Source of the DNA: Humidesulfovibrio mexicanus
GTDB taxonomy: Bacteria > Desulfobacterota > Desulfovibrionia > Desulfovibrionales > Desulfovibrionaceae
DNA: 64,000 nt
Assembly: GCF_900188225.1 (NCBI RefSeq)
Contig: NZ_FZOC01000001.1
Span: 620,596-684,595, forward strand
Direction of reading: 5' to 3'
In this document: piece by piece, positions 452 to 7,091 of the stretch
How the letters are laid out: the number at the start of each line of letters is the position of its first letter
Numbering within the stretch: the stretch's first letter is position 1
Program-made: the position numbers and the translations under genes
The notes under the pieces: generated by a model
Database searches by the model: none
Seen by the model: the letters and a program-made list of their open reading frames with translations, nothing else
Told to the model about the DNA's origin: nothing

Positions 452-1065
452 GCCTGTCCCCCATCCGGACCCCCGCCGTGGTCGCGGGCCGGATACACTT
501 CCAGGACGGCGTACTTGGGCCCGCCGGGTCCAAGTACGCTGCTCAAAAGCGCCATCTCTTCCACACGCCCCGGCGCGGACAGCGCGCCCGAAAGAGCCAC
601 GGCGATCTCGCCTTCCGCGTTTCCCCAGTCTTCCCCCGGCTCCGCCCGCCGCACCCGACCCAGGGTCACGTGCGGACGGAATGCGCGCGCCTCCGGGGCA
701 AACCCCAAAGGCTCCAGCGCAGCCTCCACGCTCCGGGCCAATTCCGCACAGGGACCGCCACCCTCCGCCAGCCCCAGCCACAGCACGCGCGGCGCGCCGC
801 GGCCGCCAACGCCACTGCCGCCTGGCCCAAGCCTCGCTCCGAATGGCGCGAAGCGCACCGCGCGCAAGGCCTGCCGGACGGCGTCCACGCGCCCCTGCTC
901 CACCTCGCCCAAAAACCGCAGGGTCACATGCCAGTTGCCCGGCCGCGTCCAGGACACGCGCGAAGCCAGCCGCCGCGAAAGCGCCCCGCTCAGCGCGTCC
1001 AGACCGCGCATCCACGTTTCTGGCAAGGGCAGGGCCACAAAACAGCGGATGTTCCTTCCGGACAT
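448..1065 (-). CDS. thpR: RNA 2',3'-cyclic phosphodiesterase (LigT/ThpR, 2H family)
   Basis: A 205-residue protein of the 2H phosphoesterase family, which opens 2',3'-cyclic phosphates on RNA ends. It opens with the typical RCFVALPLP strand. Two catalytic HxT motifs are visible: HVTLRFLGE at about residue 46 and HVTLGRV at about residue 132, as expected for the two-lobed fold. Length fits the family (about 180-200). It lies 6 bp downstream of pncC on the same strand, so the two are likely co-transcribed. Its stop overlaps the stop of the opposing gene by four bases (CTAG). Confidence 0.9.
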   Translation of the reverse strand: MSGRNIRCFVALPLPETWMRGLDALSGALSRRLASRVSWTRPGNWHVTLRFLGEVEQGRVDAVRQALRAVRFAPFGARLGPGGSGVGGRGAPRVLWLGLAEGGGPCAELARSVEAALEPLGFAPEARAFRPHVTLGRVRRAEPGEDWGNAEGEIAVALSGALSAPGRVEEMALLSSVLGPGGPKYAVLEVYPARDHGGGPDGGQA

Positions 1066-1071
1066 GGCCGC

Positions 1072-1605
1072 CTACCGGACAAAAGTCATCATGCCGAACA
1101 GGGCCCCGGCCACGCTTTGGGACTTTACGGAAGCCCGCGCGCCACGAAACAGGAAACACTCCGCCCGGCGGCCGCACGGCCAAGCCCAGGCCACCCACAC
1201 CGTGCCCACGGGCTTTTCCCGCGTGCCGCCAGAAGGTCCGGCGATGCCGGACACGGCCACGGCGCAGCCACGGCCCTCGGGCATTCCGGGCAGGGCCAGC
1301 GCGCCCTGCGCCATGGCCAGCACCACGGGCTCGCTCACGGCCCCGTGCGCCAAGATGAGCGCCGGGTCCACCCCCAGCAGCCCGCTTTTGAGAGCGTTGG
1401 AATAGGCCACCACGCCGCCATGGAACCAGCCGGAGCTGCCGGGCAGGTTGGTCACCGTGCTGGCGAGCAGGCCGCCCGTGCACGATTCCGCCGTGGCCAG
1501 CATCCAGCCATGCCCGGCCACCAGTCGCCCGGCCTCGGAGGCAAGCCGTTCCAGGCGCAGGGCATCCTCCTGCTCCAGCATGTCCGCATGTGAGCCCTTC
1601 TTCAT
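1072..1605 (-). CDS. pncC: CinA-family nicotinamide-nucleotide amidohydrolase (PncC)
   Basis: A 177-residue stand-alone CinA C-terminal domain, which deamidates NMN to nicotinate mononucleotide in pyridine-nucleotide recycling. Family motifs are TAESCTGG near residue 39, the GGVVAYSN segment and VSGIAGPSGG followed by KPVGTV. The N-terminal molybdopterin-like half found in full-length CinA is absent, as in E. coli PncC. The start is an ATG behind a strong GGAGGAAAGG ribosome site. It is the first gene of a probable pncC-thpR unit and diverges from the membrane-protein gene at 1662. Confidence 0.88.
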   Translation of the reverse strand: MKKGSHADMLEQEDALRLERLASEAGRLVAGHGWMLATAESCTGGLLASTVTNLPGSSGWFHGGVVAYSNALKSGLLGVDPALILAHGAVSEPVVLAMAQGALALPGMPEGRGCAVAVSGIAGPSGGTREKPVGTVWVAWAWPCGRRAECFLFRGARASVKSQSVAGALFGMMTFVR

Positions 1606-2225: not shown

Positions 2226-3503
2226 ATGCTTGACCTGAAATTCGTGCAGAAAAACCTCGACGCCGTGTCCCAGGGCCTGGCAAGGCGCTGCAAAACCGAG
2301 CCGGACGTGGCCGAATTCGCCCGGCTGGACGAGGCCCGCATCGCCCTGATCCGCGAGGCCGAGGCCCTCAAGGCCGAGCGCAACTCCGGCTCCGCCGAAG
2401 TGGCCAAGCTCAAGCGCGCAGGGCAGGACGCGACCGAACTCATGGCCCGCATGTCCGCCATGGGCGAGCGGGTCAAGGAACTGGACGCGGAGCTTGCCGT
2501 CATTGAGGCTCAGGAACGCGACTGGCTCTTGAAAGTGCCAAACATTCCGCACGAATCCACACCGGACGGCTGCACCGAGAACGACAACCCGGTGCTGCGC
2601 CACTGGGGGGCCAAGCCGGAGTTCGCCTTCGCGCCCAAGGAGCATTGGGAGCTGGGCCAGGCGTTGGGCGGGTTGGACTTCGAGCGCGCGGGCAAGCTCA
2701 CGGGCTCGCGTTTCTGCGTCAGCTTCGGCTGGGCGGCCCGGCTTGAGCGGGCCCTGGGCGCGTTCATGCTCGATTGCGCTGCCGAAAACGGCTACACCGA
2801 GGTCATTCCTCCATACATCGTGAACAAGGCCTCCATGACCGGCACGGGCCAGTTGCCCAAGTTCGAGGAGGACCTCTTCAAGATCCAGGGCCAGGACTAC
2901 TACCTCATCCCCACGGCCGAGGTGCCGGTGACCAACCTGCACGCGGGCGAAGTGCTGGAGGAGGACCAGCTGCCCCTGGGCTATTGCGCGCTCACCCCCT
3001 GCTTCCGCAGCGAGGCCGGGAGCTACGGCAAGGACACCAAGGGCCTCATCCGCCAGCACCAGTTTCACAAGGTGGAGCTTGTGCGCTTCGCGCATCCGGA
3101 CACATCCTTCGAGGAACTGGAGCGGCTCACCGGGCACGCGGAGATGGTGCTGCAGCGCCTGGGCCTGCACTACCGCGTCATCCAGCTTTGCGGCGGCGAC
3201 CTGGGCTTCTCCTCCTGCAAGACCTACGACATCGAGGTCTGGCTGCCCGGACAGGACAAATACCGCGAAATCTCCTCCTGCTCCAATTTCCTGGACTTCC
3301 AGGCCCGGCGGGCGAACATCCGCTTCAAGGCCAAGGGCGCGAAGAAGAGCGAGTTCCTGCACACCCTGAACGGCTCCGGCTTGGCCGTTGGCCGCACCCT
3401 TGTGGCCGTGCTGGAAAACGGCCAGCAGGCCGATGGGAGCGTTCTGCTGCCAGAGGCCCTGCGCCCCTACATGGGCGGCGTGGAGCGCATCGGGCCGAAA
3501 TAG
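2226..3503 (+). CDS. serS: Serine--tRNA ligase
   Basis: A 425-residue class II aminoacyl-tRNA synthetase that charges tRNA-Ser (and tRNA-Sec). It begins [12 protein letters not shown], followed by the long antiparallel coiled-coil arm (about residues 25-110) that grips the tRNA. The catalytic core has motif 2 ([23 protein letters not shown]) and motif 3 ([17 protein letters not shown]). Full length for the family. The start has a GGAG-type ribosome site (AAGGAGAAG, 2215-2223). It stands alone between the small membrane protein and the riboswitch-controlled nrd operon. Confidence 0.97.
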
Positions 3504-3532
3504 GCGCGGCGCGCGCTGGCGTTTCCAGAATC

Positions 3533-3563
3533 CTGGGGGCAAGGGCGGGACGCCTGCCCCCAG
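3533..3563 (+). terminator. Candidate transcription end after serS (hairpin without clear U-tract)
   Basis: A 9-bp perfect stem, CTGGGGGCA at 3533-3541 pairing with TGCCCCCAG at 3555-3563, begins 30 bases after the serS stop. No run of T follows, so it may be a weak terminator or an mRNA 3'-end stabiliser. Confidence 0.3.
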
Positions 3564-3656
3564 CACGAGCTGCAAAGCCCCGGAGACCAGGATCGGCGCA
3601 GCTTCGCCCGGGGAGCGGCCGCGCCCGCACGTCTGCCTGCGGCGGCAGTCCGGACC

Positions 3657-3681
3657 ATTTTCAAGAATTTTTCTTGAAAAT
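3657..3681. repeat. AT-rich perfect inverted repeat (operator-like)
   Basis: ATTTTCAAGAA and its exact complement TTCTTGAAAAT flank a TTT centre, giving 11 bp per arm. It is markedly AT-rich in a GC-rich background and lies 120 bp upstream of the -35 of the nrdDG promoter. Between 3504 and 3800 I see no gene; this repeat is the main structure there. Confidence 0.55.
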
Positions 3682-3800
3682 CTACAAGCTCTCACCAGCG
3701 GAAGTTCTGCCAGTAATTCATGGCCGTTGGCGCAATCCCCCACCCCTCCGGTCGGGAACAACAGCATTAAAAATCAACAGGTTACAGCACAATAAGCAGC

Positions 3801-3829
3801 TTGACTTCACGCTTCCGGACGCCCATAAG
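3801..3829 (+). promoter_or_regulatory. Sigma-70 promoter of the riboswitch-nrdDG transcript
   Basis: TTGACT (3801-3806), a 17-base spacer and CATAAG (3824-3829) place the transcription start at about 3836, exactly where the cobalamin riboswitch fold begins. Confidence 0.6.
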
Positions 3830-3830
3830 C

Positions 3831-4030
3831 GTTGGTGAGCTGGTGCCTGGACCTGGTCCGGGTGAAAAGGGAATCCGGTGCAAGTCCGGAACTGCCCCGC
3901 AGCGGTAAACGGGTACGCGTCCCCCCATCCGGAACGGATGGCATGACACTGGCGGCAAGCCGGGAAGTCGGCGGACGAAAACGGCGGCCACCGCCCCAAA
4001 CGCCCGCAAGTCCGAAGACCTGCCCGCTCA
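3831..4030 (+). ncRNA. Cobalamin (adenosylcobalamin) riboswitch controlling nrdDG
   Basis: The leader carries the ordered conserved blocks of a cobalamin riboswitch. GGGAATCCGGTGCAAGTCC begins near 3870 and is followed by GCCCCGCAGCGGTAA. Next come GACACTGGCGGCAAGCCGGG near 3945-3963 and the B12 box AGTCCGAAGACCTGCC at 4009-4024. About 150 bases follow before nrdD. They include a small GGGGC-ttc-GCCCC hairpin (4100-4112) that lacks a U-tract, so the switch may act on translation or through Rho. Known riboswitches of this class usually shut off expression when B12 is plentiful. Confidence 0.92.
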
Positions 4031-4170
4031 CGCCCGCTGCAACAACGCGGACGAACTGACGCAACAGCCTCGCGGGAGGGCGATGCGGCACACGGGTACG
4101 GGGCTTCGCCCCACTCCCTGCCGGTCCCCCCGCCGCTTCAAAGACACCACAGACGACATGGAGGAAGCAG

Positions 4171-6351
4171 ATGCTTCACGCCGCAGACACCCCGTCCGAT
4201 CCCATCTCCTCGCAGCCAGCACCGGTGCTCACCCCTCTGCGGCCCATCGCTCCCCCCGTCCAGGTGCGCAAGCGCAACGGCGAAACCATCGCCTTCGACG
4301 CCACCAAAATCCGCTCGGCCATCCGCCGCGCCGGGGCGGCCACGGGCGAATTCGACGACGACGAGGCGAGGCTCATCACCGCGCAGGTGGTGAAGGTGCT
4401 CTCCCACCGCTTTTCCGGACGCGTGCCGGACATTGAGAACATTCAGGACGCGGTGGAGCAGGCGCTTATTTCCGCCAACCACTTCAAGACCATGCGCGCC
4501 TACAGCGTGTACCGTGAACAGCGCGCCAAGCTGCGCCACGACAGAAAGACCGTGGTGGACGTGGCCGCCAGCGTCAACGAATACCTGGACCGGCTGGATT
4601 GGCGGGTGAACGCCAACGCCAACCAGGGCTATTCTCTGGGCGGGCTGATCCTGAACGTCTCCGGCAAGGTGACGGCCAACTACTGGCTGAACCACGTCTA
4701 CCCGAGGGAAGTAGGCCAAGCGCACCGCGAGGGCGACCTGCACATCCACGACCTGGACATGCTGGCCGGCTACTGCGCGGGCTGGTCGCTGCGCACACTT
4801 TTGACCGAAGGCCTGAACGGCGTGCCGGGCAAGGTGGAGGCCAAGCCGCCCAAGCACCTCACCAGCGCCGTGGGGCAGATAGTGAACTTCCTTGGCACCC
4901 TGCAGAACGAATGGGCGGGAGCGCAGGCCTTCAGCTCGTTCGACACCTACATGGCCCCCTTTCTGCGCAAGGACGCGCTGGCCTATGAAGATGTCCGCCA
5001 GTGCATCCAGGAACTCATCTACAACCTCAACGTGCCCTCGCGCTGGGGCACGCAGACCCCCTTCACCAACCTCACCTTCGACTGGACCTGCCCGGACGAC
5101 CTGAAGGAGCAGCGCCCGGTCATCGGCGGCGAGGAGATGCCCTTCACCTACGGCGAGCTCCAGCCGGAAATGGACATGATAAACCGCGCCTACATCGAGG
5201 TGATGACCGAGGGCGACGCCAAGGGCCGCGTGTTCACCTTCCCCATCCCGACGTACAACATCACCAAGGACTTTCCCTGGGACGGGCCCAATGTGGACCT
5301 GCTCTTTGAGATGACCGCCAAGTACGGCCTGCCGTACTTCCAGAACTTCGTGAACTCCGACCTTACGCCCAACATGGTGCGCTCCATGTGCTGCCGCCTG
5401 CAGCTCGACCTGCGCGAACTGCTCAAGCGCGGCAACGGGCTCTTCGGCAGCGCGGAGCAGACCGGCTCGCTCGGCGTCGTCACCATCAACTGCGCACGCC
5501 TGGGCTACCTGTCGCGCGGCAGCGAACGCGACCTGTACGCCCGCCTGGACGCCCTGCTCGACATCTCGCGCACCAGCCTGGAAATAAAGCGCAAGGAGAT
5601 AGAGCGCCGCATGGACGCGGGACTTTTCCCCTACACCAAGCGCTACCTGGGCACCCTGCGCAACCACTTCTCCACCATCGGGGTGAACGGCATCAACGAG
5701 ATGATCCGCAACTTCACCGCCGGGGCCGAGGACATCACCACCGAGGCGGGCTACGCCCTGGCCGTGCGCTTCCTGGACCACCTGCGCGCGCGCATCACCG
5801 GCTACCAGGAGGAGACCGGGCACCTGTACAACCTGGAGGCCACCCCGGCCGAGGGCACCACCTACCGTTTCGCCAAGGAAGACCGCAAGCGCTTCCCGAA
5901 CATCCTCCAGGCGGGCACCCCGGAACAGCCCTACTACACCAATTCCTCGCAACTGCCGGTTGGCTTCACGGACGACCCCTTCGAGGCCCTCACGCGGCAG
6001 GAGCAGCTCCAGCGCAAATACACCGGCGGCACGGTGCTGCACCTGTACATGGGCGAACGGGTTTCGAGCGCAGCGGCCTGCATGGAGCTCGTGCGCCGGT
6101 CGCTCTCCCGCTTCGCGCTGCCCTACATCACGGTAACGCCCACCTTCTCCGTGTGCCCCACCCACGGCTACCTCGACGGGGAGCGCAAAACCTGCCCCAC
6201 ATGCTCCGCGGAGGGCCGCGAGCAGCCCTGCGAAATCTGGACCCGCGTCATGGGCTACTACCGGCCCCGCTCGGCCTTCAACATCGGCAAGAAGGGCGAG
6301 TATGACGAGCGGGTGTGCTTCCGCGAACCGCTGCCCCTGGCTGCGGAATGA
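4171..6351 (+). CDS. nrdD: Anaerobic (class III) ribonucleoside-triphosphate reductase
   Basis: A 726-residue glycyl-radical enzyme that makes dNTPs from NTPs under anoxia, with formate-type reductant chemistry. An N-terminal ATP-cone (about residues 30-120, starting VRKRNGE) gives allosteric control, and the long ten-stranded barrel follows. The C-terminus has the zinc cysteines (VCPTHGY, CPTC) and the radical loop RVMGYYRP, with the radical Gly at about residue 695, followed by FNIGKKGEY. ATG 4171 has a GGAGGAAG ribosome site. It lies downstream of a cobalamin riboswitch and overlaps nrdG at ATGA. This suggests that it is the B12-independent reductase used when cobalamin is short. Confidence 0.95.
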   Translation: MLHAADTPSDPISSQPAPVLTPLRPIAPPVQVRKRNGETIAFDATKIRSAIRRAGAATGEFDDDEARLITAQVVKVLSHRFSGRVPDIENIQDAVEQALISANHFKTMRAYSVYREQRAKLRHDRKTVVDVAASVNEYLDRLDWRVNANANQGYSLGGLILNVSGKVTANYWLNHVYPREVGQAHREGDLHIHDLDMLAGYCAGWSLRTLLTEGLNGVPGKVEAKPPKHLTSAVGQIVNFLGTLQNEWAGAQAFSSFDTYMAPFLRKDALAYEDVRQCIQELIYNLNVPSRWGTQTPFTNLTFDWTCPDDLKEQRPVIGGEEMPFTYGELQPEMDMINRAYIEVMTEGDAKGRVFTFPIPTYNITKDFPWDGPNVDLLFEMTAKYGLPYFQNFVNSDLTPNMVRSMCCRLQLDLRELLKRGNGLFGSAEQTGSLGVVTINCARLGYLSRGSERDLYARLDALLDISRTSLEIKRKEIERRMDAGLFPYTKRYLGTLRNHFSTIGVNGINEMIRNFTAGAEDITTEAGYALAVRFLDHLRARITGYQEETGHLYNLEATPAEGTTYRFAKEDRKRFPNILQAGTPEQPYYTNSSQLPVGFTDDPFEALTRQEQLQRKYTGGTVLHLYMGERVSSAAACMELVRRSLSRFALPYITVTPTFSVCPTHGYLDGERKTCPTCSAEGREQPCEIWTRVMGYYRPRSAFNIGKKGEYDERVCFREPLPLAAE

Positions 6352-7091
6352 GCCGGAACCCGAACGGGGAGGCGGCCTTGAACGTTGGCGGCCTCCTGCC
6401 CTTGAGCACCATCGACTGGCCGGACAGGCTTTCGGCTGTGGTGTTCTGCCAGGGCTGCGCCTGGAACTGCCCGTACTGCCACAACGCGGCCCTGCGCCCC
6501 TTCGGCCCCGGCGACCGCACCTGGGACTCCGTTGCGCAGTGGCTTGATACACGACGCGGCCTGCTGGAAGCTGTGGTCTTCTCCGGCGGGGAGCCGCTGC
6601 TCCAGCCGGGCCTGGCCGACGCCATGGCCCAGGTGCGCGACATGGGCTACGCGGTGGGACTGCACACCAGCGGCATGGCCACGCAGGCCATGGCCCGCGT
6701 GTTGCCCCTGGCGCACTGGGTGGGCATGGACATCAAGGCCCCGGCTCGGCTTTACGAGCGCGTTACCGGCGTCGCGGCCTCGGCGGACGCCGCCTGGGCA
6801 AGCCTGGCCCTGCTGCGAAAATCCGGCGTAGCCTTCGAGCTGCGCACCACCTGGCACCCGCAGGTGCTCACGGAACACGATCTTCTGGAGCTGGCGGGAG
6901 AACTGCGCCAAGGCTTGGCCAACGCCGCGCAGGAGGCCGAAAACGTCCCCTGGGTCATCCAGGCCTTCCAGCCCGATGGCTGCGAAGACGCCGCCCTGGC
7001 CGAAACGGGCCGCGGCCATGTGCCGCGTCAGCTCTCCGAAGCCCTGCAGACCGCCTTGGGCCAGCACGCCAGCCTCGTGGTGCGGCAGTAG
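6348..7091 (+). CDS. nrdG: Anaerobic ribonucleotide reductase activating protein (radical SAM)
   Basis: A 247-residue radical SAM activase that installs the glycyl radical on NrdD. The iron-sulfur motif CAWNCPYC (CxxxCxxC) sits at about residue 42, preceded by the usual TIDWPDRLS segment, and a GGEPLLQ motif follows. The start at 6348 overlaps the nrdD stop as ATGA, which implies translational coupling. An in-frame ATG 33 bases upstream would only add residues inside nrdD. It belongs to the NrdG2-like branch (about 230 residues) rather than the short E. coli NrdG. Confidence 0.93.
   Translation: MSRNPNGEAALNVGGLLPLSTIDWPDRLSAVVFCQGCAWNCPYCHNAALRPFGPGDRTWDSVAQWLDTRRGLLEAVVFSGGEPLLQPGLADAMAQVRDMGYAVGLHTSGMATQAMARVLPLAHWVGMDIKAPARLYERVTGVAASADAAWASLALLRKSGVAFELRTTWHPQVLTEHDLLELAGELRQGLANAAQEAENVPWVIQAFQPDGCEDAALAETGRGHVPRQLSEALQTALGQHASLVVRQ

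Follow-up and report, generated by a model that had tools for sequence, protein, structure and literature searches.

Upstream of nrdDG, the operon of the class III (anaerobic) ribonucleotide reductase (RNR), B12-elements have been reported in Desulfovibrio vulgaris and Desulfuromonas (Rodionov et al. 2004, PMC545781). According to the accessible part of that paper, the class II enzyme NrdJ is present in all delta-proteobacteria studied, and B12 would inhibit the B12-independent isozyme. For Propionibacterium acnes, the accessible sections of a 2013 RNA-seq paper annotate cobalamin riboswitches before nrdDG and before nrdAB, and the data suggest early termination for nrdAB (PMC3848588). Here we describe an nrdDG operon behind a cobalamin riboswitch in a stretch of 64,000 nucleotides (nt) from Humidesulfovibrio mexicanus (the whole stretch is called the window). 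Judging from its named relatives, this organism is probably a sulfate reducer. The original prediction regarded B12 control of a class III RNR in a sulfate reducer as worth confirming. Such control is predicted in the window; however, it is not new, because it was published in 2004 (PMC545781). At the level of prediction, the riboswitch on nrdDG is already answered in the literature. New relative to the literature that we searched are a split between a riboswitch-controlled (switched) and an unswitched NrdD paralogue, and the occurrence of two NrdD lineages under the same switch. We give a probability of about 0.85 to the explanation, taken as a whole, that B12-repressed nrdDG is held as a reserve to NrdJ, with an unswitched nrdGD operon beside it. 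The elements of the switched operon are as follows.

3801..3829, plus strand: probable sigma-70-type promoter, from the sequence (TTGACT 3801-3806, 17 nt, CATAAG 3824-3829)
3824..4041, plus strand: cobalamin riboswitch aptamer, RF00174 (cmscan), the 5' end of which overlaps the -10 box
4161..4167, plus strand: ribosome-binding site of nrdD, GAGGAAG, from the sequence
4171..6351, plus strand: nrdD, class III (anaerobic) ribonucleoside-triphosphate reductase, 726 amino acids (aa), TIGR02487 and NF006126
6348..7091, plus strand: nrdG, activating radical S-adenosylmethionine protein (NrdG2), TIGR02495, with the start placed from the sequence

The covariance model RF00174 matched 3824-4041 of the plus strand with 105.3 bits (cmscan, E 2.6e-25) over its full length (model positions 1-189 of 189). 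The gathering score of this model is 31.5 bits, and the match was the sole Rfam family match in the 64 kb window that reached its gathering threshold. It lies between serS (2226-3503; named from its translation and not by a profile scan) and nrdD. The riboswitch is thus located 5' of, and on the same strand as, a B12-related gene, with NrdJ encoded in the same genome. The direct order of promoter (TTGACT 3801), riboswitch and nrdD (4171), which the original prediction had read from the letters, holds, with a covariance match that spans the entire aptamer. We aligned and compared the leaders of 12 nrdD genes of the window type. In all 12, TTGAC is followed at 17-19 nt by a -10 element containing ATA, and RF00174 was found in every one of them even though the flanking sequence has diverged. 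It should be mentioned that the promoter at 3801 does not appear in the output of a strict consensus promoter scan. Since the RF00174 match opens with the bases of the -10 box, the RNA is expected to start near 3836, and about 12 positions at the 5' end of the match are probably promoter and not RNA.

NrdD scored 502 bits with TIGR02487 (cut-off 326) and 1158 bits with NF006126. By eye, its C-terminus contains RVMGYYRP and CPTHGY...CPTC, which we take to be the glycyl-radical motif and the zinc cysteines. NrdG scored 194 bits with TIGR02495, the NrdG2 model (cut-off 131), on an open reading frame (ORF) that begins with GTG at 6315 in the ORF list; we place the putative start at ATG 6348, where it and the stop codon of nrdD share the sequence ATGA.

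The genome (3.52 Mb in 15 contigs, estimated 100% complete) has four RF00174 matches, which lie before nrdD, metE, cbiK and cobT. The cobT product passes its model (TIGR03160, 428.8 bits); metE scored 450.7 bits with NF003556 on a partial ORF (cut-off 541), and cbiK scored 196.4 bits with NF047852, under the cut-off of 400. The metE and cobT aptamers cover only positions 47-167 of the RF00174 model. A MetH-like protein matched model positions 44-854 of 1182, below cut-off. The genome also encodes class II NrdJ (TIGR02504, 730.9 bits; NF006417, 1217 bits with a cut-off of 961), and a genome search for a class I small subunit detected none. Neither of the sequence-based grounds for rejecting the original prediction holds, as the aptamer and a class II RNR are both present. 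Its proposal that B12 repression lets the cell use the class II enzyme is supported by the RF00174 match and by NrdJ, but it is incomplete. A second class III NrdD (L086; 686 aa, 49% identical to the window NrdD over 691 aligned positions) sits in an operon of the order nrdGD. No RF00174 match was found in the 3.4 kb of sequence examined at this locus, and none of the four genome-wide matches is near it. Therefore, NrdJ would not be the sole reductase left under B12 repression, which would shut off one NrdD but not the other.

We propose the following mechanism. A riboswitch of the RF00174 family, which we take to sense adenosylcobalamin (AdoCbl), would repress nrdDG when intracellular B12 is sufficient. 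NrdDG would then be the reserve, B12-independent reductase, produced when there is not enough AdoCbl for NrdJ to work, and the unswitched nrdGD would stay available with or without B12. This logic would extend to metE; a switch of this kind also precedes the B12-synthesis genes cbiK and cobT. For the read-out, the leader contains three further elements.

3895..3906, plus strand: L5 loop segment CCCCGCAGCGGT, present in 12/12 leaders; named L5 by analogy to published cobalamin-riboswitch models
4067..4079, plus strand: near-invariant hairpin GCCTCGCGGGAGG, candidate P13/L13 of the expression platform, from the leader alignment and motif positions; this role is putative
4080..4160, plus strand: GC-rich linker without a U-tract, which by folding with shuffles can form a strong hairpin that takes in the last part of the element before it (about 4073-4135)

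The 4067-4079 hairpin reads GCCTCGNGGGAGG in 11 of the 12 leaders (L104 deviates), and between the aptamer and this element lies a hairpin of variable sequence. From the 12 leaders, RNAalifold recovered only parts of the hairpin that follows P1 and of the 4067-4079 hairpin, in addition to three outer pairs. The loop of the candidate L13 is GCGGG in seven leaders, GTGGG in one and GAGGG in four; against the L5 segment CCCCGCAGCGGT, this gives an exact complement in seven, one wobble in one and one mismatch in four. In a published model of cobalamin riboswitches, as given in the accessible part of the paper, L5 pairs with L13 of the expression platform (PMC9600662). An L5-L13 kissing loop in the nrdD leader is plausible from these sequences. 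The most plausible read-out would be that L5 pairs with the 4067-4079 hairpin (P13/L13) and alters the downstream fold, and that this change acts on translation or on Rho-dependent termination and not through a U-tract terminator. A leader ORF (GGGAGG, then ATG 4083) was also considered and dropped; by eye, the ATG is missing in several of the 12 leaders.

Premature transcription termination, either Rho-dependent or at a GC-rich hairpin that lacks a U-tract, comparable to relatives with a classical terminator, is a reading that we place only a little short of even odds. Five of the 12 clade leaders have T-runs of 4-6 some 64-67 nt beyond the aptamer, and strong hairpins were seen by eye in the nrdD leaders of two metagenome-assembled genomes (MAGs), one of Geobacteraceae (L029, where a U-tract follows) and one of Desulfobulbaceae (L037). 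In contrast, the window leader has no T-run of at least four between aptamer and nrdD, and a terminator scan of the plus strand at 3500-4300 gave no terminator-like site, in agreement with the earlier remark that no U-tract terminator precedes nrdD.

We then compared the distribution of the switch with that of NrdJ, using 60 nrdD loci from the order that were picked across genera and not at random. At 30 of these loci, in 29 genomes, nrdD has RF00174 upstream and in the same orientation. NrdJ_Z was above cut-off in 29 of 30 genomes with switched nrdD, the window genome included, and the exception is G100; two of them, G096 and G003, pass narrowly (404 and 406 bits). Ten genomes have neither NrdJ_Z nor a class I or II large-subunit match, and a comparison by hand showed that three of these (G100, G039 and G070) have RF00174 at most 1.1 kb upstream of nrdD. 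Thus, the simple NrdJ account fits most genomes examined, not all. Among the 80 nearest relatives of the window NrdD, RF00174 lies upstream on the same strand at 13 loci (8 of the 80 have less than 500 nt of upstream sequence). NrdJ_Z is above cut-off in 12 of the 13 switched genomes versus 39 of 58 unswitched genomes, a count that omits these 8 loci and L073; the 13th switched genome (L006) has NrdJ_Z only as sub-threshold pieces. As a predictor of the switch in this set, NrdJ was set aside as weak, because class I subunits also seem to come near or over the NrdJ_Z cut-off.

Several observations on other riboswitches were made along the way. In genus g13, weak RF00174 matches (39-46 bits) precede an RNR of about 900-970 aa that scores 391-404 bits with NrdJ_Z, near the cut-off: L147 (G096), L148 (G101), G109:C5:254633-256705 and G114:C35:172099-174177. 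L147 and L148 have an NrdJ-like C-terminus (CPECG...CKACGYTTCG), and by eye the L147 leader resembles the nrdD leader of the same genome. At two other loci, divergent cobalamin riboswitches form pairs about 150-240 bases apart, with one member before nrdD.

L092, 288-477 (minus strand) and 716-917 (plus strand): riboswitches, RF00174
L012, 835-1029 (minus strand) and 1177-1373 (plus strand): riboswitches, RF00174

The pairing of a switched with an unswitched NrdD is common among the genomes searched from the family of the window genome, which judging from named relatives is probably Desulfovibrionaceae. RF00174 was searched in 34 family genomes, and the listed NrdD matches were placed against the riboswitches; these 34 are part of the 60 family genomes in a sample of 120, and 21 of the 26 omitted belong to genus g2. 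NrdD matches of g2 mostly come in pieces within one open frame (for example G011, G016 and G062), as if there were an insertion inside the enzyme. Two or more NrdDs are listed for 23 family genomes. Both a switched and an unswitched copy occur in 21 of these, two (G080 and G109) have none switched, and in none are all copies switched. With a single listed NrdD, 3 of 11 genomes are switched (G096, G101 and G102; in G096, two NrdD matches were counted and one was listed). In the literature searched, we found no description of the split between switched nrdDG and unswitched nrdGD, which is not proof of its absence.

These pairs allow another reading, namely that labour is divided between two class III enzymes and not between class III and class II, with the B12-repressed NrdD as auxiliary and the unswitched NrdD as housekeeping enzyme. 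The 21 of 23 genomes speak for it, as does G100, which has the pair (L125 and L149, one switched and one unswitched) with no class I or II large-subunit match. However, NrdJ_Z in 29 of the 30 switched-nrdD genomes marks class II as the usual partner. We regard this division of labour as possible, at distinctly below even odds.

To place the switched copies, we built a FastTree tree of 140 NrdDs (89 unswitched, 43 switched and 8 not scored). It should be noted that the tree is from FastTree only, that two long rows (L145 and L128) are flagged and that L142 (less than 300 aa) was omitted. One set (support 96) contains 22 unswitched rows of the family. The switched family copies checked on the tree fall in two lineages that are about 49% identical. 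The native-type set has nine rows, all switched (support 99), and the window-type set has 12 rows, also all switched (support 99), with two named Desulfovibrio MAGs inside. The switched rows L141 and L143 of g2 attach at the root by very long branches and are left unplaced. The window-type set is nested in a set of 23 rows, 21 of them switched (support 98), which takes in MAGs named Actinobacteria, Geobacteraceae, Desulfobulbaceae, Deltaproteobacteria, Alphaproteobacteria and Acidobacteria. The other near relatives of the window NrdD are mostly from beta- and gammaproteobacteria without the switch. The natural reading of this tree is that the window-type operon was transferred between classes. 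The name "PRK08270" for the window lineage was given up, since at 1021.8 bits the genome's second NrdD clears that model too. Tentatively, and with somewhat less than even confidence, we suggest that the RNR set of the family has a fixed position marked by the riboswitch, held by a B12-repressed reserve NrdD next to an unswitched one, and that this position is filled by two distant NrdD lineages in different genera. Outside the family, the nearest relatives of the window lineage come from MAGs that bear the names of other classes and phyla. The switched copy would have been replaced across species while B12 control was kept, with selection on the regulation and not on the particular enzyme.

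A translational read-out is the less favoured of the two read-outs, and we put it well below even odds. Without ligand, the half of the 4067-4079 hairpin that resembles a Shine-Dalgarno sequence (GGGAGG) would pair with a downstream C-rich segment and free the ribosome-binding site of nrdD; with B12, the hairpin would form against L5, and the C-rich segment would mask that site. Eleven of the 12 leaders carry this GGGAGG, and the lack of a U-tract in the window is consistent with this idea. We folded the 12 leaders, each with 200 dinucleotide shuffles of the linker, and compared the accessibility of the Shine-Dalgarno (SD) sequence. In L006 the predicted difference was +0.32, a value reached by 1% of shuffles, with a similar tendency in L089 and L101 (10-12%). 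In contrast, the other nine leaders showed no difference beyond the shuffles, and the window gave the opposite sign (-0.17). An SD-sequestration model was not adopted, since of the 12 leaders folded it found support only in L006 and, weakly, in L089 and L101. Finally, we find it very improbable that the aptamer is a degenerate, non-functional leftover, given 105 bits over the full model and its retention in all 12 window-type leaders despite diverged flanks.

Four points weigh against a B12-repressed reserve to NrdJ as we propose it. The unswitched second NrdD (L086) weakens a simple hand-over from class III to class II. Switched nrdD occurs with no class I or II large-subunit match in G100 (one contig, 100% complete), G039 (draft, 99%) and G070 (draft, 85%). 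The weak RF00174 matches of g13 stand on an RNR that is probably B12-dependent, which the reserve logic does not predict. Folding gave no general SD switch, and the window SD sequence is predicted to be less accessible without ligand.

The locus is a clean extra example of cofactor-dependent isozyme choice, a kind already described. Owing to the paralogue split, one can ask by experiment whether the B12-repressed NrdD is a back-up for NrdJ or divides the work with another NrdD; the split also suggests that a regulatory element can be kept on non-orthologous enzymes. The cobalamin riboswitch of Streptomyces nrdABS (Borovok et al. 2006) reportedly lets B12 repress a B12-independent RNR in favour of class II; there the enzyme is of class I, whereas it is of class III in the window. 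P. acnes is like the window in that a cobalamin riboswitch is annotated for a class III operon and the genome also has NrdJ; unlike the window, it is an actinobacterium, its class I operon is switched too, and NrdR boxes are described (PMC3848588, accessible sections). In Oleidesulfovibrio alaskensis G20, metE and cbiK have riboswitches, and these are two of the other three switched genes of the window genome; the accessible text mentions no nrd riboswitch, and the term nrd occurs 0 times in the main text (PMC11124144). The term is likewise absent from the accessible main text of a study of RNA-motif regulons in ten Desulfovibrionales genomes (PMC3766115). For D. vulgaris and Desulfuromonas, the accessible part of the 2004 paper makes no mention of a split between switched nrdDG and unswitched nrdGD, whereas riboswitch family, operon, presence of NrdJ and proposed logic are all the same as in the window (PMC545781).

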